A stretch of DNA of 64,000 bases, from positions 1 to 64,000 of the forward strand of contig CAMCOS010000004.1 of assembly GCA_945876565.1 (NCBI GenBank). The letters run 5' to 3'. The notes below the pieces were generated by a model. It saw only the letters and a program-made list of their open reading frames with translations, was not told where the DNA came from and searched no databases. Source of the DNA: Lautropia mirabilis (GTDB lineage: Bacteria > Pseudomonadota > Gammaproteobacteria > Burkholderiales > Burkholderiaceae_B). The position numbers and the translations under genes were made by a program. Shown one piece after another: positions 8,220 through 18,130 of this stretch (position 1 is its first letter; every line of letters begins with the position of its first letter).

Positions 8220-9527
8220 TCAGGCTATCTGTTTAGCCATCTCTTTGAGGACGGTGTGCAAAATGGCCCTGAGGCAACGGGATTCACCAGCCATCGTGGC
8301 AGACAGCTCGGGGCGGACGCTGGCGATCTGGGCGTTCTCAGCTTCGACCTCGGCATACAGCGCTTCCGCTTCCTGCACAGCGCGGCTGCGCAGGTTTTCA
8401 AGCAGTCGCTGGGCAGTGCCTTTGGCCAGATTCAACGACGCACCCGCCTCCAAGAGCAGACCATGGTTGATGTCCGAGAAGTGCCGCACACCCAGAATCG
8501 GCCATGCCAGTTGGGTTTGTGTGGGCCATCCTTTTTTGTCGAAGGCGACGCAGTCATATGTGGCGACGCTGAGCAGGTCGTAAAACGGTGCCAACTGAAC
8601 CCCCTCATGCGAGACCAGAAAGCTCAGGTTTTTCAGATGGGCATCGCTGTTGCCGACGAGCACATTGAACACCAACCAGCCAAAGAGACGAGCGCGTGCG
8701 ACCGCCGGGCTGCGACAGGCGTTGGCCAGCGCCGCCAGACTCTCCATACTGCCCTGGCTGTATTTGAAGCTTCGATCCAGCCCGAGTAACTGGCAGGCAT
8801 CAATCACGTGGCGGCGTTGCCAGCCTTGATCGTCTGAAATCCGGTCAAAGCGATCAATCAGGTACACCGGTGATGGCACATAGCGGCGGTGCACTTCAGG
8901 CACATCCAGCCCGAGTCGTTTGGCCAGCCGCATCACGAACCATTCGTTGATCACGGAATGCGGGTAGTCCTCGTCCGGGTGATCCGGCTTCAGAATATGG
9001 GTAGAGGGTGTGGCGCCAGCGGGTTCAAACAGCGCGTCATCGTGAAGAACGACCGCCAGCTTGTGCTGGGCGCCCGCCAGCGACATGCGCTTGATGGCCG
9101 CATGCGTCAGCGGTGCCTTGGGCAGTTGCCGAATTCTCGCCTCCAGTGCAGCGTCGGGCAACGGGCGCAATGGCTCTGTCATGTGCGGCGCAGCCTCGGG
9201 CGGCAGCAAGGTCACTGACCCTGCGGATTCCGCGCCGTACCAGGCCAACAAGCCAAAAGCATCTGCCGCATCCAGTTTGGCGTCTCCAGCCAGCAGCACA
9301 CGTTGGCCTTCTTCTGGCAGCAGGTTGTCGAAATACCATTGAACGGGGCGCTTGCTAGCGCCGTCCAGCAAGGTCTCTGCGTTCAGTGGCAGATGCGGGC
9401 TGAGCGCGAAGCCCCTTGGGTTTGCAACCCAGCCCGCTGCATATTGAAATCCCCACAGGCTAGCCACCTCTTGCAAGGTGCCGACCTCCATCTGGTTGAT
9501 CGATGCTCGCAAGGAGCGGCCACTCAT
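8220..9527 (-). CDS. hipA: HipA-family serine/threonine kinase toxin
   Basis: A 435-residue HipA-like kinase. Seen: SLAGAQHKLAV at residues 149-159 (P-loop-like segment), THILKP with likely ATP-binding Lys180, LIDRFDR, the catalytic loop NVLVGNSDAHLKN at 288-300 (Asp295), and APFYDLL at 313-319 with metal-binding Asp317. In E. coli HipA phosphorylates glutamyl-tRNA synthetase and causes persistence; other HipA-type kinases hit other targets. The start overlaps the hipB stop by four bases, so the pair is one transcript. All key residues are present, so it looks active. Confidence 0.9.
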   Translation of the reverse strand: MSGRSLRASINQMEVGTLQEVASLWGFQYAAGWVANPRGFALSPHLPLNAETLLDGASKRPVQWYFDNLLPEEGQRVLLAGDAKLDAADAFGLLAWYGAESAGSVTLLPPEAAPHMTEPLRPLPDAALEARIRQLPKAPLTHAAIKRMSLAGAQHKLAVVLHDDALFEPAGATPSTHILKPDHPDEDYPHSVINEWFVMRLAKRLGLDVPEVHRRYVPSPVYLIDRFDRISDDQGWQRRHVIDACQLLGLDRSFKYSQGSMESLAALANACRSPAVARARLFGWLVFNVLVGNSDAHLKNLSFLVSHEGVQLAPFYDLLSVATYDCVAFDKKGWPTQTQLAWPILGVRHFSDINHGLLLEAGASLNLAKGTAQRLLENLRSRAVQEAEALYAEVEAENAQIASVRPELSATMAGESRCLRAILHTVLKEMAKQIA

Positions 9528-9790
9528 GGCTTATCCTTGGTGGTCGCAGGTTCGTTCAAGTGGGTGGCAACGCTCTCGGGCACATCCAATATGACCAGAA
9601 TGCCCAGCCCTTCGAGCACTTGAAAGAGCTTACCCCACTGCACGGACTCACTGCCGCGTTCGATCTTGCCCAGAAAATTCTCGCTGACGCCGATGCTGCC
9701 TGCTGCATCGTCCTGGCGGATCTTCTGTGCCTTGCGGCTGGCGCGTACTACCTTGCCGATGGCTGCTGCATTGTCGATGGGTATTTTCAC
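9524..9790 (-). CDS. hipB: HipB-type antitoxin and repressor
   Basis: An 88-residue XRE-family protein: IGKVVRASRKAQKIRQDDAAGSIGVSENFLGKIERG is the helix-turn-helix, followed by a beta strand (LGILVILDVP) and a short basic tail. It starts at a GTG (9790) with GAGGA six bases upstream. That ribosome site lies inside operator-like site O1, so repressor binding there would also cover the start region at the DNA level. It overlaps hipA by four bases. HipB proteins bind HipA and repress the operon. Confidence 0.88.
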   Translation of the reverse strand: MKIPIDNAAAIGKVVRASRKAQKIRQDDAAGSIGVSENFLGKIERGSESVQWGKLFQVLEGLGILVILDVPESVATHLNEPATTKDKP

Positions 9791-10201: not shown

Positions 10202-10489
10202 TCAGCAGACCTGCAACCGCAGATTCTTGCCACACGCTTGTACGTAGCGGCGCAGGGTGGCGACCGATGGTGAATGTTTCCCCGTTGCCAGAGATTTCTC
10301 CAGCCGCGCCACCGATGGCGCTTGCGTGCCCATCCGTGCAGCGAGATCCGCCTGCGTCAAGCCGGCTTCCAGCCTGGCCTTGAGCAAGGCGTCGAGCAGC
10401 TCACCTTCTTCCCGTTCGATGCGTTCAACCTCGGCTTTCACGCCAGAGCGGCTCATCAGTGCTTTGACCACTTCGTCATGCGTTTTCAT
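10202..10489 (-). CDS. higA: HigA-type XRE antitoxin
   Basis: A 95-residue protein with an acidic N-terminal helix region and an XRE helix-turn-helix (AGLTQADLAARMGTQAPSVARLE), ending with the LRRYVQACGKNLRLQV tail typical of HigA antitoxins paired with Gp49-like toxins. It follows its toxin gene and overlaps it by 14 bp, the reversed order characteristic of higBA. Expected to neutralise the toxin and repress the operon. Confidence 0.8.
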   Translation of the reverse strand: MKTHDEVVKALMSRSGVKAEVERIEREEGELLDALLKARLEAGLTQADLAARMGTQAPSVARLEKSLATGKHSPSVATLRRYVQACGKNLRLQVC

Positions 10490-10808
10490 GCTTCACCTCT
10501 TTCAAGCGAATCATCGCCGTATCCAACTCGCGCGGGGGCGTGCGATTGGTCTTCTTCAAAAAACTGTGCAACATCACGATCCGTCGGCCCACCTGCGTGC
10601 AGTAAAACACCCGAGCAATGCCTTCAGCACCTTTGAGCCGAAGTTCGAACAAGCCGCTCTTCATGGCCTTGGTGTGAGGCTCGCCCAGATTGGGCCCCAG
10701 CGCCACCATGCGCCGAGTCAGCACCACATAGCGCGCAGCCAGCGTGTCAGGCAAGTCCAAGATCTCATCTTGTACGGCTTCGCTGTAGTAGCGAATCTCG
10801 TATTCCAT
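10476..10808 (-). CDS. higB: HigB/RelE-type toxin (phage Gp49-like)
   Basis: About 110 residues from the ATG at 10808 (MEYEIRYYSEAVQDEILDLP). Downstream are GLFELRLKGAEGIARVFYCTQVGRRIVMLHSFLKKTNRTP and ELDTAMIRLKE, the core of Gp49/HigB-like ribosome-dependent mRNA interferases. The longer open frame from 10826 lacks a better start. Toxin-first order and the overlap with higA fit higBA. It is divergent from a truncated HTH gene at 10829, so both probably share a promoter region. Confidence 0.8.
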   Translation of the reverse strand: MEYEIRYYSEAVQDEILDLPDTLAARYVVLTRRMVALGPNLGEPHTKAMKSGLFELRLKGAEGIARVFYCTQVGRRIVMLHSFLKKTNRTPPRELDTAMIRLKEVKHENA

Positions 10809-10828
10809 ACGCCCGCATAGTAACAAAT

Positions 10829-11020: not shown

Positions 11021-11089
11021 AATTATCGGCGCCAAGCAACCAATTGCAGCCCGTTACATACCCCAAACACCGCCAGCACTCGCCTCGCC

Positions 11090-12185
11090 GGCCAGGTAAC
11101 AGAGGAATTTAGGATCAACCGTATCCACTGCCATCTGTCGCTCGACTGCGGATCGAGTATCTCGGCACCGCGCGGCCCGGCCACATATCGCTCGATCCTG
11201 GCGATCACGGCTTCGGGCGCGACCGGAGCGATATTCGTGAAGATCTGGAGGCCGTCTTCGCCCAACGCCGCGAGATCGCCAAAAATACCGTCGGCACCGA
11301 GCCAGCGCTCGACCGCGGCTCGTGCCTCGGCGCTGTCGTGCAGATAGCCGAGGCGGCGCGAGAGGGACTTCAGCATCCGCGCCGTGAGCGAAGTGCAGAA
11401 GCGATCGAAATCGGCCGGGGGCATGCGTTCGAGGGCGAACCCGGCGAGCGGGTTCGCGATCGCGTGCGGCAGGATCGCGCGCCACGCGGAAATTGCCGTC
11501 ACTGAACTCCGATATCGTTCGCCGGTCCACCTGCGTTACATTGGGGAAGGTCTTTTCCAGCCATAGCTCTACCATTTCGGGCGATGCTGATTGCAGGCGA
11601 AAGACCTCGGTACGCTCGGGCTCATCGTCGCGAACATCATATTCGACCGTGAGGAGGCTGACCTGGCTCCCCGCTTGCGAACAGATGCGGGCAAGTTCGC
11701 TGTGCGTCGCCGGATTGCAGTTATCGACGATCAGGATCGCGCGTTGCCGTGCGATCACCAGCTTGCGCGCCATGCCCCCGAGTGGTCGGGTCAGTCTCGA
11801 TTGAATAGTCGGTATAAACGGCAAGCCCCGGGTCGAGCGGCGCCTCGCCGACACCATCCTCGAACAGTGCCTGCACGAGACGAGTCTTTCCGAGACCGGA
11901 CAAGCCGATCAACCGGATACATTGGCGAGCTTTGGTAAGAGAGACACGAAGCCGGGCGATACCCTCGCCGATGGTGAGTTGCTCGTGGTCGCTCGTTCGC
12001 TCATCGGTTAGGCAAGCCTTGTCGTTGAAGAGATAGGGCGTTTCCTCGCTCACGCCGACGCCGCACCAATCTCCAATGCTGCTCCAGCCGGACATACCGA
12101 TGCCGAGCCGCGTGCGTACCCAAGCGGCGATTCCGGGATAGTGATTGACCCATGTTGCCAGCCGGTCGCGATCGTTCTGCCGTCG
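11090..12185 (-). pseudogene. Decayed STAND/AAA-type NTPase gene
   Basis: Three minus-strand pieces in different frames belong to one ancestral gene. Piece one (about 12180-11797) has RLATWVNHYPGIAAWVRTRL and the Walker A motif GLSGLGKTRLVQALFED. Piece two (about 11790-11500) has MARKLVIARQRAILIVDNCNP with a Walker B-like ILIVDN. Piece three (about 11500-11090) has WRAILPHAIANPLAGFALERM, RLGYLHDSAEARAAVERWL and IFTNIAPVAPEAV. At least one frameshift lies near 11790 and an internal deletion near 11500. STAND NTPases of this shape are often anti-phage sensors, but I cannot assign a family. It should be non-functional. Confidence 0.55.
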
Positions 12186-12199
12186 AGAGTCCAACAGTA

Positions 12200-12345
12200 G
12201 TAAGCAACGTGATGAGCAGACCGATTCCACCCGCAGCCAGAGTCAATATGCTTTTATCGTGTTCAAGTGCGGTGTTAAACCAGGCAGTCACTGCTGCAGA
12301 GTAGTACTCAACAGTCTTGAGATCTTCAATTTCTTGTGGGGTCAT
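12200..12345 (-). pseudogene. Truncated small membrane protein
   Basis: From the ATG at 12345 the frame reads MTPQEIEDLKTVEYYSAAV, then WFNTALEHDKSILTLAAGGIG and LLITLLTTVGLST, a soluble helix followed by one clear hydrophobic helix. Near 12200 it runs into sequence that belongs, in another frame, to the decayed NTPase gene. It looks like the N-terminus of a two- or four-helix membrane protein cut by the same deletion. I do not recognise a family. Confidence 0.4.
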
Positions 12346-12378
12346 GTGTCTGGAAACCAACAGGTTGGACTCCCCGGA

Positions 12379-13233
12379 TCATCTTGAGATGGTGGATTGA
12401 GGAGGGTAGTCTTTCAGACTCATGTGCTCAAGGCGCCACTCTTTGAAGTTCTCCGACTGAGCAACTGTGATTGCGTTGTCAGACATGGGATCGCAGTACG
12501 TCAGGCATATGCCCTGCCACTCGCCGGTCTGTGACTCAAATGCCTCAGCGAACAATCGTTCGAGTTCTTCAGCGGCATTGCTTGCAACCGCTGCCGCTGC
12601 CGGCTCATCACGCAAGCTGTTGTACAAGACCACAATGCCGAGCTGGTACGTATCAGCCGGTGCAACTCGCTCCACGTCTTCACCCTCATCAAGGTCAAAG
12701 AGCAGTCCACGTATGTGATCGCCCCCTGCCTCGAGGATGCCTTCAATGCGATCAAGAAAAGTCTCTTTGCCCGGCATCTGTGGCGATCTCAGACGCGCTT
12801 CAAATACCTCTGGAAATGCAGCGCGCCGGTAACGTGCTGCCAGCCACTTTTGGAGAATGTTGTGTCCCTGCTTGTCTAGCACGATATCCCGGCGGGGCGC
12901 ACATGTGGACAAACTGGCCTTGGACACAGGGATTTTTTCTGTTGCGGAAAGTTCGAGAACAACTAGGCCATCGGCCGACTGATACTCGATTTGCAGACGT
13001 CGAGCGGTCTTGGCGAATGAATCGCGGCCAAGCTTGCGCACCCGCTTTCCCATGATCACTTCAGCGTTCGGCTCTTTGCTTTCGCTGGCAGCTAAATCGC
13101 AATCGTGAGAAATCACTACGGCATATACAGGTTCTGACGAACCATCAGCAGATCCCAGGCCGCAGATCGCGACTGCTTCGTCGCTCAGAATGTCGCCTTG
13201 GCGCCAAGACAGATTTCTCGCAGTGTCCACCAT
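12379..13233 (-). CDS. Unknown protein with VVISHDCDL motif
   Basis: A 284-residue soluble protein of unknown function. The early GDIL and VYAVVISHDCDLAAS motifs are its most distinctive part; later segments include FPEVFEARLR, GLLFDLDEGEDVERV and a C-terminal WQGICLTYCDPMSDNAITVAQSE. The ATG at 13233 has GAGGTG eight bases upstream and is preferred over the TTG at 13248. It lies 11 bases after the stop of an XRE-type gene and two genes after a TIGR04255-like gene, all on the minus strand, so it is the last gene of a likely operon. No catalytic family could be recognised. Intact, with no sign of decay. Confidence 0.7.
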   Translation of the reverse strand: MVDTARNLSWRQGDILSDEAVAICGLGSADGSSEPVYAVVISHDCDLAASESKEPNAEVIMGKRVRKLGRDSFAKTARRLQIEYQSADGLVVLELSATEKIPVSKASLSTCAPRRDIVLDKQGHNILQKWLAARYRRAAFPEVFEARLRSPQMPGKETFLDRIEGILEAGGDHIRGLLFDLDEGEDVERVAPADTYQLGIVVLYNSLRDEPAAAAVASNAAEELERLFAEAFESQTGEWQGICLTYCDPMSDNAITVAQSENFKEWRLEHMSLKDYPPQSTISR

Positions 13234-13244
13234 TCGTGAACACC

Positions 13245-13916
13245 TCAAGCATCTTCAGCTAGGTGGGGAACAGCAAACTCTGAGTCGACGTGTGCACTTT
13301 TCTTGCGCCCAGCCAACCGCGAAGCGAGCCGTTCGCGTTGTTGAGATTCCCTAATCAATGTGTCCGTCAATTTCCGAGCCAAATCGACGACGTCTGCACC
13401 TTTCGTCACAGAGTCTAAAAGTGACGGCGCAAGACCAATCTTTCGCCTCAACAACTGGGGCGCAATTTCAAGACCTGATTCGGCCAACACGTCTGCAGCT
13501 CTAGCAAGGGTTGAAAGTTTCTCTGCATTGGCTGGTGAAAGAGCCCCACCCTTGGCCCACTCGTGGACTGCCTGCCGTGTCACTCCGAAAACCCGTGCCA
13601 GCTCTGTGACGGAGATTTTTAATACCTCACGGATGTGCGCCAAATCACGAACAGAAGAACTGCTGTTGTTCGCCGCTTGGTTTACTGCTTCATGAATCTC
13701 GATCTGGTTTATGGTCCAGTTCGATGTGGCTGCACTGGCATGAAGATACATCGGAGACAGCAGGCCAAAAGTCCCGGCCACGCAATACTTTATTATCCGG
13801 CCAGCCAAGTCGCATCCGAGGTCGGATGGCTTTTCTTCAAACGAATCGGAGGCAGAGAATGTCGTTGCCTTTCCGGTATGTCGAACCGGACCATCTGCTT
13901 GATAAGCTGCGTACAT
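13245..13916 (-). CDS. XRE-type helix-turn-helix protein of unknown role
   Basis: A 223-residue protein. Residues about 92-140 form an XRE-like helix-turn-helix (LAHIREVLKISVTELARVFGVTRQAVHEWAKG), followed by a helical region (NAEKLSTLARAADVLAESG), an ADVVDLARKLTDTLI helix and a basic tail. The N-terminal 90 residues show no known domain. GGGAGG lies eight bases before the ATG at 13916, supporting this long start. It begins 18 bases after the stop of the TIGR04255-like gene and is followed closely by the VVISHDCDL protein. It could be the regulator or antitoxin-like member of this set. Confidence 0.7.
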   Translation of the reverse strand: MYAAYQADGPVRHTGKATTFSASDSFEEKPSDLGCDLAGRIIKYCVAGTFGLLSPMYLHASAATSNWTINQIEIHEAVNQAANNSSSSVRDLAHIREVLKISVTELARVFGVTRQAVHEWAKGGALSPANAEKLSTLARAADVLAESGLEIAPQLLRRKIGLAPSLLDSVTKGADVVDLARKLTDTLIRESQQRERLASRLAGRKKSAHVDSEFAVPHLAEDA

Positions 13917-13934
13917 AGTAGATACCTCCCATCC

Positions 13935-14738
13935 TCAGATCTTCCACGCTTTAAGCGCGTCAGGCATAACAACTGCATTGAAAGCAACGTCGATTCCCGC
14001 TCGCAGGAGCGTCAGCTGGGATTTGATCTCATCCAAACTAAGCGTGTTCCGACCATCAATGGATGCATCGGTATCCACGATTGCATGAACACCATTGATT
14101 TTTTGGAATCGATCTGCAACCTTGACTCCAATTGGCTGAAGATCCATGGGGAACCCCAAAGGTCCCGCTTGAATGATCGTTCTGGCAAGCACGGCACACC
14201 CGGCAGTTTGAAAGTGCGTCTCAGAAAAAGAGTGTGACACCTGAACGTCATCAGGCAACTTGTTGCTCAATCCAAGGACGCCTGAAGCCAAATATTCAGG
14301 TAGGCCATCTTCGCCATTGGGCGGAACGATTGCATCAAGATATCGAAGTCCAACGCGTTCGGTATGTGCCAGGGTCATGCATTCATGCACTATGCCCAGC
14401 CCCTTCATGAATTCATCAATAAACGACTCGAAGGTGTCGTACTCAGTCGTTTGAAATGAAAGGGCGTTTTGTTCGACGATAAAGCCCCTGGTGCTATCTG
14501 AGCTGGAAAACATGAGCCGCTCGACTTTCTCGACGGTTGGCTGCTGTTGTTGCGGCTCATCACCAATTTGAGACATCAACGAAATCGCCATGGCTACCCC
14601 CTTCTTAAAGTCGGGGTAGCCAGCTTTACGCATGCGATCCTGAATCTCGTCTGCATAAGCAGCAAGGCGCAGGACAGGGTTGTGCCGAACCTGGGCAATG
14701 GTGAAGTACACCGGCGCGTTCTTCATTTTTTCACCCAT
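13935..14738 (-). CDS. TIGR04255-like sporadically distributed protein
   Basis: A 267-residue protein beginning MGEKMKNAPVYFTIAQVRHNP, which with YADEIQDRMRKAGYPDF matches the N-terminus of the TIGR04255 family, a patchily distributed bacterial and archaeal group of unknown function. Later features are TRGFIVEQNALSFQTTEYDTFESF, ERVGLRYLDAIVPP and a C-terminal DTDASIDGRN plus helix. The ATG at 14738 has GGAG six bases upstream and is preferred over the GTG at 14750. First gene of a tight three-gene set; repeats just upstream may be its operator. Confidence 0.7.
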   Translation of the reverse strand: MGEKMKNAPVYFTIAQVRHNPVLRLAAYADEIQDRMRKAGYPDFKKGVAMAISLMSQIGDEPQQQQPTVEKVERLMFSSSDSTRGFIVEQNALSFQTTEYDTFESFIDEFMKGLGIVHECMTLAHTERVGLRYLDAIVPPNGEDGLPEYLASGVLGLSNKLPDDVQVSHSFSETHFQTAGCAVLARTIIQAGPLGFPMDLQPIGVKVADRFQKINGVHAIVDTDASIDGRNTLSLDEIKSQLTLLRAGIDVAFNAVVMPDALKAWKI

Positions 14739-14749
14739 GACACTCTCCA

Positions 14750-14821
14750 CTTGACAATCCGATTGACAGTTTACACCATAATTGACAGTCGTGGAAGTAG
14801 CCGAGTAGCCGGGTAGCCGGA
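14750..14821. promoter_or_regulatory. Repeat cluster upstream of the TIGR04255-like gene
   Basis: On the + strand ATTGACAGT occurs at 14762 and 14781 (19 bp apart) and CTTGACAAT at 14750; these are followed by three tandem 8-bp units TAGCCGAG, TAGCCGGG and TAGCCGGA at 14798-14821. They lie in the only sizeable gap of the minus-strand cluster, directly before the TIGR04255-like start, and are plausible regulator sites, perhaps for the XRE-type protein of the same operon. Confidence 0.45.
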
Positions 14822-14851
14822 GCAGAACTACTGCACGCAGACCGACAGATC

Positions 14852-15268
14852 TCAGGGCACTCGCACCGGTCGCGCGACCCGTGGCCTTCGAGCCTGACTA
14901 TCCGTCTGCAGGTTAGCCGTCCGGGAGAGGATCCGGAGGATTGCCTGGTCATGGTGGCACGCGCGGAATGCGTCGGCCACATAGGTATCGATGAACGTGG
15001 CCGTTGCCTGGCCATCCGCCGGAGCCGACACAGCACCATCCGGGATTTCTCTGGGCCAGCCCCGGGCAGCCCGAAAGCCACTCACCAAGTGTGAAAAGTA
15101 CGGCCACGTGTGGTCCAGATGGGCGTCATCGATGGTGACCCGCACTCCGGTCAGTTCACACTCAACCCGCCCATTCATCAGGCTTTGCCATCCATGACTC
15201 CCCACGAATTGATATCGAATCTCACATTTCCAACATAAGAACTTCTTCCAAGTCAGATCCATGCGCAC
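14852..15268 (-). CDS. DUF3223/DCL-like protein
   Basis: Up to 138 residues. The segment VECELTGVRVTIDDAHLDHTWPYFSHLVSGF followed by FIDTYVADAFRACHHDQAILRILSRTANL resembles the C-terminal half of DUF3223 (DCL-type) proteins, where a VDH-x-F-x-LV pattern precedes F-x-H-A-LRLVS-N. The open frame overlaps the macro-domain gene by 47 bp; the true start may be an internal ATG at 15178, or the two may have been one gene before a frameshift. Function unknown in bacteria. Assignment is from memory of the motif pattern and is moderate. Confidence 0.5.
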   Translation of the reverse strand: MRMDLTWKKFLCWKCEIRYQFVGSHGWQSLMNGRVECELTGVRVTIDDAHLDHTWPYFSHLVSGFRAARGWPREIPDGAVSAPADGQATATFIDTYVADAFRACHHDQAILRILSRTANLQTDSQARRPRVARPVRVP

Positions 15269-15908
15269 GCATCGCGGAGTTCAATGCCGCAACTGTGAAC
15301 TCAGGCACCGACGGCGTACGAAAATCGAAGGCCAAACGTCTGGCTTTGATCGTTTCCCGATTAACACGCAGGAACTCCCCAATGCTTGCAGCCAGCGCAT
15401 CTATGTCCTGCCGGTCGCGGACCAGTTCGCGCGGCACAGCGCTGACGGGTGCCTGCGGATGAAGCGAGCCAACTGAGGATCGATCGTTGACCTCACTCAC
15501 AAATGACTTCACCAGCTCGCGATCGATACCGAGTCGTCGTGCGTGAATATCCAGTGGTGAGAGCCCGTCCTCGGCATAAGTCAAAATGTGAAACTGATCC
15601 AGATTGTCGCGAACCTCTGATTCCTTAACTCTTGAAACTCTCAGGGGTACGAGCGCCTGCGGGGTGCTTTCTTCGGCGGATGCGACATACTGTTCAAGCG
15701 ACCGACGGAACAGGTGCAAGAGTTCATCGCTCACCACCACAAAACGAATTTCCAGCAGATTTTGAAGCGCCCCTGCCATTTGGCATGCAACACGCACCAG
15801 GATTGGAATGGCTTCCTCCGCTGGGTAGCCGTAGACGCCCATCGAAATCGCAGGAACAGCCAATCGGGTTAAGCCATTCTCGTCAGCTAGCGCGATGGTG
15901 TTGCGCAT
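15222..15908 (-). CDS. Macro-domain protein lacking its N-terminal part
   Basis: A 228-residue frame from the ATG at 15908. Residues 6-30 (ALADENGLTRLAVPAISMGVYGYPAEEA) are the second half of a macro domain, including the ISxGVYGYP loop that contacts ADP-ribose. The first half, with the NAAN and glycine-rich loop, is absent: upstream codons stay open to about 16035 but show no macro motif. A C-terminal region of about 150 residues (LDQFHILTYAEDGLSPLDIHARRLGIDRELV) has no recognised domain. Either an N-terminally deleted remnant or an unusual start. Macro domains bind or remove ADP-ribose. Confidence 0.55.
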   Translation of the reverse strand: MRNTIALADENGLTRLAVPAISMGVYGYPAEEAIPILVRVACQMAGALQNLLEIRFVVVSDELLHLFRRSLEQYVASAEESTPQALVPLRVSRVKESEVRDNLDQFHILTYAEDGLSPLDIHARRLGIDRELVKSFVSEVNDRSSVGSLHPQAPVSAVPRELVRDRQDIDALAASIGEFLRVNRETIKARRLAFDFRTPSVPEFTVAALNSAMRAHGSDLEEVLMLEM

Positions 15909-15987
15909 GGCTTTCTCGAGATTTCCGGGAGGATCGACTGTCTGGGCGTTACTTGTTGCGTTTCTCAGTTGGAGAATTCTTTTGCTT

Positions 15988-17196
15988 ATGACATGGGCAG
16001 ACGTGTTGTTAGATCTGCCAGTTGATGGCGTTCTACATCAATTTTTTGAACAAGAAGGGTTGTCCGTTCCAACGGACTTTGAATGGCTTGATACAACAGC
16101 GGCCAGCCGCGCGTTGATTGAATTGGTTTTGAGCAGTTGCGATGTTGATTTGCGAAGCAGAATCTCAACTCGTCTGACGGCACTTGCTCGGCTTGATCAC
16201 GTGAAGGGACGACAGGCAATGTTCGAAATGGCTGAGACAATGCCTGAAGTTCGAGCCCAACTTGCTGCGTGCCGAAGCGAACTACACCGGGCCTTGTGGC
16301 TATCAATGGAGCAGCCAGTACTTTACGAACGTGCGGAAGCACTGTGCCAGTTCGATACGTTGGCAAACCTAGCCCAACAGTACGATCTCGGTGTTCAGGT
16401 CGTGCCAGACCTGTCGCCATGCGCGATGGCTGCGTTAGAAGAAGAAGTGTCGGGATTTTATCGGCGCAAGCAAAACGCGGGTCAAGCTTGTGTTTCGTTT
16501 ATCCACGAAAGGGAAAATAGTGTTTATTTTGTTGGGCTACGCATCAAAGATTTGAGTTCGCTTAGCCTGGAGTTTGATGGGAACAACCTGATTCGACGCG
16601 AAAGTAGTCGTTGTATCGCAATGTCTTTGGAATACTCATCGCGCACCGGGGTGGCACGTGTACTGGCTCGAGGAGATGTTGAATACCAGCAATGTCTGGT
16701 CAAGGCATTTGTTAGGCATCTGTTAAAGATTTCGCCAGAGATGCCCTGGCTACCGCCACCGACCTTGGACCTGTCAAAACTTCGGCTTGGGTTCATTGCT
16801 CCAAAGGCTGTGACTGATGGATTTACGCTGATGAGGGTCCGATCGTTCACATTCATAAGCCCCGACCACCAGTTACGTGTTGATTGCTGTGCTTTGGAAG
16901 CTGACGGACAGAGTTGTGTCACCAATCTGCTCGCTAAGAAAATGCCGGATGTGATTGAACAAGAGTGGTTGATCAGTGCCGCGCAAATTGATCTGTACTG
17001 CCCGCCGCTTATTGATGGCTACGACCATCGAGTACTTACTGTTGAGCTTACTCGTAAGGGGCGTCTTAACCTGCCTCGATTCAACAGCGTCTTGCAGGTG
17101 CAGCTTGAGGGCTATTTGCTAGAGGCCGGCGTTATGCTGCCACATCAGACGCTATGTGTTGTCGAGCAATCAGGGTTTGGTGATGTCAGCGCATGA
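15988..17196 (+). CDS. Unknown protein, first gene of a two-gene unit
   Basis: 402 residues from the ATG at 15988 (GGAG about eleven bases upstream); an earlier in-frame ATG at 15895 would overlap the divergent macro-domain gene. The protein is soluble, largely helical in the first 160 residues (LTALARLDHVKGRQAMFEMAE), then mixed. It has FIHERENSVYFVGLRIKDL and a C-terminal VLTVELTRKGRLNLPRF segment. I recognise no family or catalytic motif. It overlaps the next gene by 14 bp, so the two are surely co-transcribed and their products may act together. Confidence 0.65.
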   Translation: MTWADVLLDLPVDGVLHQFFEQEGLSVPTDFEWLDTTAASRALIELVLSSCDVDLRSRISTRLTALARLDHVKGRQAMFEMAETMPEVRAQLAACRSELHRALWLSMEQPVLYERAEALCQFDTLANLAQQYDLGVQVVPDLSPCAMAALEEEVSGFYRRKQNAGQACVSFIHERENSVYFVGLRIKDLSSLSLEFDGNNLIRRESSRCIAMSLEYSSRTGVARVLARGDVEYQQCLVKAFVRHLLKISPEMPWLPPPTLDLSKLRLGFIAPKAVTDGFTLMRVRSFTFISPDHQLRVDCCALEADGQSCVTNLLAKKMPDVIEQEWLISAAQIDLYCPPLIDGYDHRVLTVELTRKGRLNLPRFNSVLQVQLEGYLLEAGVMLPHQTLCVVEQSGFGDVSA

Positions 17197-18130
17197 GTCC
17201 TTGTCGTTAGTCTGTCGGCTCTTTGCTATCGGTGCTCTGGTGCATCAGTCTGCGCTGCCACCGCAGGAGCGTGGCGTGATTCAGTCTCTGAAATTTGCGC
17301 TCAAGCCGGTGCCAATCAGTCGCAACAGGGCTCTGTGCCCCTTTTGTCACCTAAGTCTTGGATTTGTCTGCTCCGGTGACGTCAAGCGTCAGCACTGTCG
17401 TTGTCCAGACTGCGGGTTAATTCCGATAAAGGCCGATGACCTGCTTGGTGTCTCACTTGATGAAACATGGCTAAAACGTAAGCTTCGGCTAGCCATGAAC
17501 ATCGCAAGTCATGATGGCGTGGACGAAATCGCCGACGGCATTTGGCGAATTGGAAACGCCAGGCGTGATCCAGTAGTGTTGGCCCGTAGCCTTGACCATG
17601 TGTGGCGGGATCCATCTGTTCTCGACCGGGTGCGTGTTTCTCGAGGTAAGACAACGGTAATTACACCGACCAAACGGAAAGTGGCTGCAGCGCCATTGGG
17701 CGACGAGGTTATCTGGTTACCCTTACAAGAGCGTTTCGCTATCTATGGGTCTGGGCTCTCCTTTATTGAGCCAGGTGAAAAGCAAAGTCGTGCCATCGGC
17801 CCTGCGATCCCAGTGCACGGACCATTTTCAGAGGATTTTCGTTGGGTGACCTTGCAAGAATGGCCACATGGTCCGATTCGGCTTACAAAAGGGCAGGCGG
17901 CTATTTTCAGGGCCTTGTGGTCATTTCAGGGCGTGAAAGTTGATGCGCAACGGCTAATGGCACGCGCTGGACTATCGAGTGCGAAGCCGATTGACCTATT
18001 CAAAGCAAAAGCCAAGAGTCGAAGCAATGATGATTACCAAATAGGACCATTGACCGTTTACAGGCGGCTAGTGTTTTCAGATCGGCGTGAGGGGCTTTAC
18101 TGGCTTGTACTGGACGATATACAGCATTGA
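17183..18130 (+). CDS. Unknown zinc-ribbon protein, second gene of the unit
   Basis: 315 residues from the ATG at 17183. Cys52-x2-Cys55 (CPFC) and Cys74-x2-Cys77 (CPDC) form a probable zinc ribbon. A C-terminal region (RLTKGQAAIFRALWSFQGVKVDAQRLMARAG) resembles a winged-helix segment, which would suit DNA or RNA binding. The start overlaps the preceding gene by 14 bp. No known family recognised. The pair lies divergent from the macro/DUF3223/TIGR04255 cluster, sharing the intergenic start region with it. Confidence 0.65.
   Translation: MSAHESLSLVCRLFAIGALVHQSALPPQERGVIQSLKFALKPVPISRNRALCPFCHLSLGFVCSGDVKRQHCRCPDCGLIPIKADDLLGVSLDETWLKRKLRLAMNIASHDGVDEIADGIWRIGNARRDPVVLARSLDHVWRDPSVLDRVRVSRGKTTVITPTKRKVAAAPLGDEVIWLPLQERFAIYGSGLSFIEPGEKQSRAIGPAIPVHGPFSEDFRWVTLQEWPHGPIRLTKGQAAIFRALWSFQGVKVDAQRLMARAGLSSAKPIDLFKAKAKSRSNDDYQIGPLTVYRRLVFSDRREGLYWLVLDDIQH

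Follow-up and report, generated by a model that had tools for sequence, protein, structure and literature searches.

The first 64,000 nucleotides of contig CAMCOS010000004.1 of Lautropia mirabilis (GCA_945876565.1), the stretch referred to here as the window, carry three adjacent genes encoding a TIGR04255 protein (A), a helix-turn-helix (HTH) protein (B) and a VISHDCDL protein (C), for which a sequence-only reading had proposed a role as a defence or addiction module. Comparison across genomes, viral contigs and plasmids establishes A-B-C as one conserved, co-directional and mobile module with near-constant co-occurrence and a patchy spread over several phyla, and places many of its phage copies at a known prophage defence hotspot. 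We consider it probable, with real room for doubt, that the trio is a mobile anti-phage cassette of toxin-antitoxin (TA) character; the defence function, the toxicity and the role of each protein we infer from genomic context and predicted structure.

Conserved gene order and patchy distribution

In the window, A, B and C are intact open reading frames (ORFs) on the minus strand (12379-14738), separated by gaps of 18 bp (A-B) and 11 bp (B-C), and each ATG is preceded by a GGAG/GAGG-type ribosome site recognised by eye; in both respects the sequence-only reading was correct. The start of C is most likely the ATG at 13233; an upstream TTG at 13248 would overlap B. Loci that combine an HTH-type B with a VISHDCDL-type C are termed alpha below, and related cassettes with an SNTCDI third protein are termed beta.

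A wider search with C confirmed 145 genome relatives, the best 80 of which were analysed together with 50 viral loci. The order A-B-C was kept in 79 of these 80 genome loci and in 47 of the 50 viral loci, many of the latter being near-identical; 86 C sequences were left after removal of those more than 82% alike and those too short. The exceptions are a locus without detectable A (L047), two cut by a contig end (L126 and L155) and one with a C fragment only (L156). The reciprocal search via A gave the same picture: B and C accompany A in 45 of 48 viral loci, and the remaining three end at a contig edge. Among plasmids, tblastn located C in 8 records and A in 11. Nine of the A-bearing records were viewed, and in all nine A is followed by two co-directional genes, the third gene of the Mesorhizobium and Vibrio records being counted by position and not by the C profile. 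Judged by title, the genome loci belong to Proteobacteria, Acidobacteria, Verrucomicrobia, Chloroflexi and others, many being metagenome bins in which misbinning is possible, and the plasmid copies extend the spread to Deinococcota and Cyanobacteriota.

Within its own phylum the module is sparse. By profile search, 4 of 101 relatives and 8 of 398 phylum genomes encode C, each count including the own genome. A single-sequence search of genome contigs with C gave 34 pattern stretches, none of them confirmed. Besides the window there are ten such C loci, and A was present in eight of them (one weak, E 0.0015); L021, in genome G157, is without A, and L022 ends inside B. TIGR04255 itself was found in 30 of the 398 phylum genomes, at 32 places in all, and in none of 14 control genomes. 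The sequence-only reading had called this family patchy, had recommended a search for the trio as a conserved neighbourhood, and had named a missing neighbourhood or housekeeping homologues as grounds for giving up its proposal; what emerged is a conserved order and a patchy distribution.

A conserved operator in the leader

The leader had also been described as rich in repeats. It holds four TGT[CA]AA sites at -49, -37, -30 and -18 relative to the ATG of A and, further upstream, a CGGCTAC repeat not shared by the aligned relatives; only the last ~60 bp above A are conserved in an alignment of the window and five relatives. In alpha leaders generally, TGT[CA]AA direct repeats have a spacing of 12 bp, and two such pairs often lie at a distance of 19 bp from each other. 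At least two sites were found in 106, a 12-bp pair in 99 and a 19-bp pair in 54 of the 108 distinct alpha leaders with enough upstream DNA, among which the handful used for motif discovery are not independent tests. By comparison, 7046 control windows of the same size from the same loci gave at least two sites in two cases and a 12-bp pair in none. A set of 19 further alpha leaders, from the window, plasmids and distant relatives, contains the exact pair in nine; in four others (L025, L027, L292 and L293) a drifted 7-mer recurs at a 12-bp interval, for which the background is 48 of 1994 control windows with an identical 7-mer pair of any sequence, and six show neither.

The 12-bp pair was found in none of 30 distinct beta leaders and in none of 19 leaders of other TIGR04255 cassettes. 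The loci of these 49 leaders gave no B-profile match (L217-L241 at E<=0.5; L294-L332 at E<=0.01), and five middle proteins of non-alpha cassettes run against Pfam revealed no HTH. Since the operator is present in B-bearing leaders and missing from cassettes with other middle proteins, it points to B as an autoregulator, and the simplest reading is that B would bind the TGTMAA repeats and control its own operon. A role of B as controller of a regulon was rejected, as the own genome contains six operator-pair places, two of them in the own leader and only four elsewhere, against two for a reversed-pattern control. In viral contigs the three-site pattern matched 38 stretches, three of them beside an A gene, and the others were read as chance. 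A sigma-70 promoter scan of 12200-15000 found none.

Genomic addresses in prophages and Escherichia coli

The interval between gpA and gpQ of P2 has been described as a hotspot of anti-phage systems and is the home of old and tin (Rousset et al., 2022; PMC9122126); four systems reported by Vassallo et al. are located at the same site (PMC9519451). Within the fetched flanks, the portal gene gpQ accompanies 28 of the 50 viral alpha loci, and both gpA and gpQ accompany 23, so that many phage copies of the trio can be assigned from their flanking genes to this hotspot. An antiterminator Q gene was found in 15 of 32 viral beta loci.

Close copies are also present in E. coli, where megablast against 5426 complete genomes retrieved the alpha trio from 18 and the beta trio from 92; in all 18 and all 92, one place covers at least 80% of the trio at 99% identity or higher. 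A third query had no match among these genomes by the same search. The alpha trio of NZ_CP027586.1 is part of a P2-like prophage, with the gpA (replication endonuclease)/DinI genes on one side and the portal gene gpQ on the other, and the beta trio of NZ_CP028578.2 is part of a lambdoid prophage, flanked by the lysis genes and antiterminator Q. Both trios are transcribed against the direction of the neighbouring portal or lysis genes. The proteins of the E. coli alpha trio have the accessions WP_000106358, WP_001368407 and WP_000961024.

Predicted properties of the three proteins

Protein C had been presented as an orphan, and it remains one in the searches made here, with no match in Pfam, NCBIfam or PADLOC up to E 0.1. 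It falls into the function-unknown PHROGs family phrog_34320 (E 8.3e-5), and a PDB sequence search with the C profile reached a best E of 0.12. The invariant residues of the family are W10, Q12, D44, C45, D46, R78, W130, L131, Y135 and R137. Structure prediction of this protein, suggested in the sequence-only reading as a check, yielded an AlphaFold2 (AF2) model with a predicted local distance difference test (pLDDT) score of 88.1 and a predicted template modelling (pTM) score of 0.72. The best Foldseek match was MazF (E 0.018, prob 0.99), with none at E<=0.001. With VIA, residues ~5-138 reached a best Z of 9.2 (99-106 residues, root-mean-square deviation 3.2-3.9 Å), and the 50 rows listed for C comprise MazF/CcdB-type toxins and one type III toxin (Z 7.2-9.2). 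Among the first 25 rows of a comparison with viral models, six were named PemK-like or endoribonuclease (E 0.029-0.74), and none reached E<=0.001. The N-domain of C is thus moderately supported as an SH3-like MazF/CcdB barrel in its predicted fold. Membership of C in the MazF family was considered and rejected, given that neither a PF02452 match nor profile homology was obtained.

Protein B matches HTH_3 of Pfam (23.5 bits, cut-off 23), and its family has a conserved SRQAxYxW-type helix. Ahead of the HTH, the N-terminus is hydrophobic (17-residue mean of at least 1.3) in 62 of 85 proteins scored out of 87 members, a count made with no control set, and a GTG motif is present in 55 of the 85. 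The Meiothermus B is annotated without the hydrophobic segment, although its frame is open for 25 codons further upstream.

Protein A matches TIGR04255 of NCBIfam over the whole model (1-252 of 252; 168.7 bits, cut-off 30) and belongs to another function-unknown PHROGs family, phrog_35157 (E 1.3e-9). Its AF2 model (pLDDT 93.9) is a two-repeat saddle. The best VIA match (Z 8.9) was to guanidino kinases; with no Foldseek match at E<=0.001, the likeness to these enzymes and to the TATA-binding protein (TBP) is marginal, and a relationship to either was rejected. The best hit of a PDB sequence search with the A profile had E 0.37, and no SecB row was found among the 50 fold matches listed for A.

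Other cassettes headed by TIGR04255

Eight of the 32 TIGR04255 places in the phylum are of alpha type or cut by a contig end, and the other 24 were examined. Under a loose ORF rule, 22 of them begin a run of two more co-directional ORFs, L228 does so once its middle gene is added, and L223 stands alone. The loose rule was rejected as proof of cassettes, because it is also passed by 40 of 62 control ORFs with lengths of 200-450 amino acids (aa), compared with 21 of 23 scorable TIGR04255 genes; only a strict rule with gaps <=30 bp separates the two groups (16/62 versus 20/23). The third genes of the 24 places are of SNTCDI type in 5, AFxP..SV in 11, HEPN-looking in 2, HLAWH in 2, PemK in 1 and unassigned in 2, with none in 1. 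The HEPN-looking and HLAWH types were assigned by eye, and the AFxP..SV grouping was begun by eye (L227 by eye only), its two subgroups being joined by hhalign (prob 83, P 8.9e-6). Second and third genes selected from these cassettes gave one clear match in Pfam, NCBIfam and PADLOC, a true PemK toxin (67.9 bits) in L221 (2935-11763), where it follows TIGR04255 and a 95-aa gene; other matches were HTH-type (B) or weak, such as DUF5440 (E 0.026) for the third gene of L240. By eye, the L221 cassette is flanked by large genes resembling a multi-gene defence operon. In L234 (4049-5719) and L240 (282-1943), the two genes after TIGR04255 encode proteins of ~188 and ~124 aa, the second of which looks HEPN-like by eye; no Pfam match exceeded the cut-off.

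A TIGR04255 gene lies upstream in all 32 viral SNTCDI loci and in five of seven genome loci of this type; of the other two, L299 has an unmatched gene there and one ends at a contig edge. Inspected by eye, the beta middle proteins (L313 4581-4922 and relatives) are hydrophobic at the N-terminus, and their C-terminus is a conserved tail (PLGxEF...NLWDLY in several of them) that looks suited to binding a partner. Across the non-alpha TIGR04255 cassettes, 16 of 22 middle proteins score below the hydrophobicity value of 1.3. The alpha protein C and its beta counterpart C' share QGD and CD motifs (local alignment P 0.0077 with 5 beta sequences, 0.021 with 21), and as the alignment is confined to the surroundings of these motifs, proven homology was rejected and homology is weakly supported.

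It is conceivable, if still somewhat doubtful, that a large and so far unnamed family of three-gene cassettes for immunity or addiction is built around TIGR04255 as shared core: an unchanging first protein, serving as sensor or scaffold, would be combined with swappable middle and effector proteins. The middle proteins would include an HTH protein with a hydrophobic segment, a short hydrophobic tail protein and others, and the effectors would be VISHDCDL, SNTCDI, true PemK, HEPN-looking and AFxP..SV proteins.

Proposed mode of action and alternative explanations

As an anti-phage cassette, the trio would act as an autoregulated TA or abortive-infection system that prophages, plasmids and genomic islands carry in order to exclude other phages. 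B would bind the TGTMAA repeats and repress the operon, and C, through its MazF/CcdB-like barrel, would be a growth-stopping effector, perhaps acting on RNA. B, with its HTH and hydrophobic segment, and/or A would keep C inactive, while A, common to other TIGR04255 cassettes, may sense the trigger or support the complex; upon infection C would be released. The P2 gpA-gpQ hotspot and the predicted fold of C support the defence-or-addiction reading. The conserved neighbourhood, the leader operator, the PemK toxin in the L221 cassette and the E. coli matches, all of which include one over at least 80% of the trio, also count in favour of the proposal.

Several observations weigh against this proposal. 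The best VIA Z is typically 7-8 where Foldseek gives no clear match, so that the value of C is moderately above this background and that of A is near it, and a fold match is not toxicity in any case. The C family profile (87 rows) aligned with 21 MazF-like proteins at an hhalign prob of 0.1 (E 0.42), PF02452 (PemK_toxin) is matched by none of the 87 members at E<=0.01 nor by the window C at E 0.1, and four of the 87 match TsaD weakly (best E 0.00023), four families being matched in all at E<=0.01. L021 and L047 have B-C without recognisable A. A P2 marker was found in only one of 80 genome alpha loci, so many copies lie elsewhere, and the P2 site also houses non-defence genes, namely partition genes and a virulence toxin (PMC9122126). 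The window copy, moreover, sits in a decaying island.

The same data could be accommodated by a TA module that stabilises plasmids or prophages through addiction and has no anti-phage activity, with the P2 site serving as a tolerant slot for cargo. Carriage on plasmids, the lack of partial copies in E. coli at megablast level and the autoregulation suggested by the leader operator would all fit, but the recurrent gpA-gpQ placement (both genes in 23/50 viral loci) and the broken defence gene adjoining the window copy argue otherwise, and we regard this explanation as unlikely. Alternatively, the roles could be reversed, B being an effector that acts on the membrane through its N-terminal hydrophobic segment and C (the barrel) together with A providing restraint or sensing. 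The hydrophobic N-terminus of B would suit such an effector equally well, given its frequency (62/85) and that of the GTG motif (55/85), and beta-class middle proteins likewise have a hydrophobic N-terminus. However, the HTH of B goes with the operator, the annotated Meiothermus B lacks the segment (with the upstream frame noted above), and most middle proteins of other TIGR04255 cassettes (16/22) fall below 1.3; a membrane effector is therefore, in our judgement, improbable.

Least probable of these readings is a phage regulatory module for lysogeny or late-gene control, with neither defence nor TA function. An HTH protein with a private operator and numerous copies in viral contigs would be expected of such a module, yet plasmids and the genomes of several phyla also harbour the trio, the own genome has operator pairs outside the leader only near background level, and in both E. 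coli prophages inspected the direction of the trio opposes that of the portal or lysis genes beside it.

Relation to known systems

The three-gene system at the P2 hotspot invites comparison, and we presume that it corresponds to Rst_3HP of DefenseFinder. Rst_3HP is listed as mostly prophage-encoded (PMC9090908), and the P2 system is described as protecting against P1 and as having "no clear predicted domain" (Rousset et al., 2022; PMC9122126). It resembles our trio in gene number and in its gpA-gpQ site; as far as that description goes, the HTH of B argues against identity of the two. Toxin-antitoxin-chaperone systems, including CmdTAC, also provide three-component TA-like phage defence in E. 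coli (PMC9519451; PMC11618068), but no SecB-like protein appears among the 50 fold matches listed for A, and the effector fold differs.

Like MazEF/PemIK (type II TA), the trio is a small, mobile operon whose leader contains an operator of its own; further common ground is the MazF/CcdB-like fold (predicted for the C N-domain) and the link of a true PemK to TIGR04255 in L221. In contrast, the trio has three genes with HTH and TIGR04255 partners, and C is a 284-aa protein with a second domain, outside PF02452 and without profile homology. The other TIGR04255 cassettes (beta SNTCDI, AFxP..SV and PemK third gene) likewise begin with TIGR04255, form a packed three-gene run and are patchy; they differ in their middle and third proteins, and none of their 49 leaders has the TGTMAA 12-bp pair.

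PADLOC-DB 2.0.0 returned no match for A or C, and only weak generic-HTH matches for B (RmrA, mad1), with both the window and the E. coli proteins. Literature searches, which covered neither preprint servers nor supplements, found no paper naming TIGR04255 or six of the protein accessions, and by other terms no paper was recognised as describing the trio. The trio is probably an undescribed toxin-like phage defence, with the P2 system of Rousset et al. (PMC9122126) compared by its description only.

The trio and its surroundings in the window

Table 1. Positions of the trio, its operator and adjoining gene remnants in the window.
Feature	Position	Strand	Remarks
Operator, four TGT[CA]AA direct repeats	14751-14787 (units 14751-14768, 14770-14787)	minus	two TGTMAA-N6-TGTMAA units, 19-bp period
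Gene A, TIGR04255 protein, 267 aa	13935-14738	minus	first component; ATG at 14738
Gene B, HTH protein, 223 aa	13245-13916	minus	hydrophobic N-terminal stretch, then Cro/C1-type HTH
Gene C, VISHDCDL protein, 284 aa	12379-13233	minus	N-domain ~5-138 and second domain
PD-Lambda-4_A defence gene remnants	11023-12230	minus	separate ORFs; 155 and 141.8 bits, different profile parts; directly downstream of C
Macro-domain remnant	15222-15908	minus	PF01661, 28.3 bits, profile 83-117 of 118; upstream of trio

The trio had been placed in an island full of TA and broken defence genes. The broken genes are borne out by the remnants in Table 1, the macro-domain ORF looking like a broken ADP-ribose-processing gene in which a C-terminal domain part is fused to unrelated sequence. 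The TA neighbours were recognised by eye only, the minus-strand ORFs at 8220-9790 and 10202-10826 being, as we assume from their translations, HipA/HipB-like and HigB/HigA-like pairs. Beside the trio, ORFs of 433 aa and 324 aa overlap on the plus strand (15895-18130); neither has a Pfam match above the cut-off or any match in NCBIfam or PADLOC.

Significance

For TIGR04255, a named family without a function, these results propose a role that can be tested, namely that of the invariant component in a cassette of three genes. The orphan protein C becomes a candidate effector whose predicted fold is recognisable, and the conserved operator offers an immediate handle on regulation. Because two cassette classes have close relatives in E. 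coli, the idea can be tested in laboratory strains of this species. If the wider family proposed above is real, TIGR04255 cassettes would constitute a modular platform whose logic is comparable to that of the cyclic-oligonucleotide-based antiphage signalling systems (CBASS) or the TA superfamilies.

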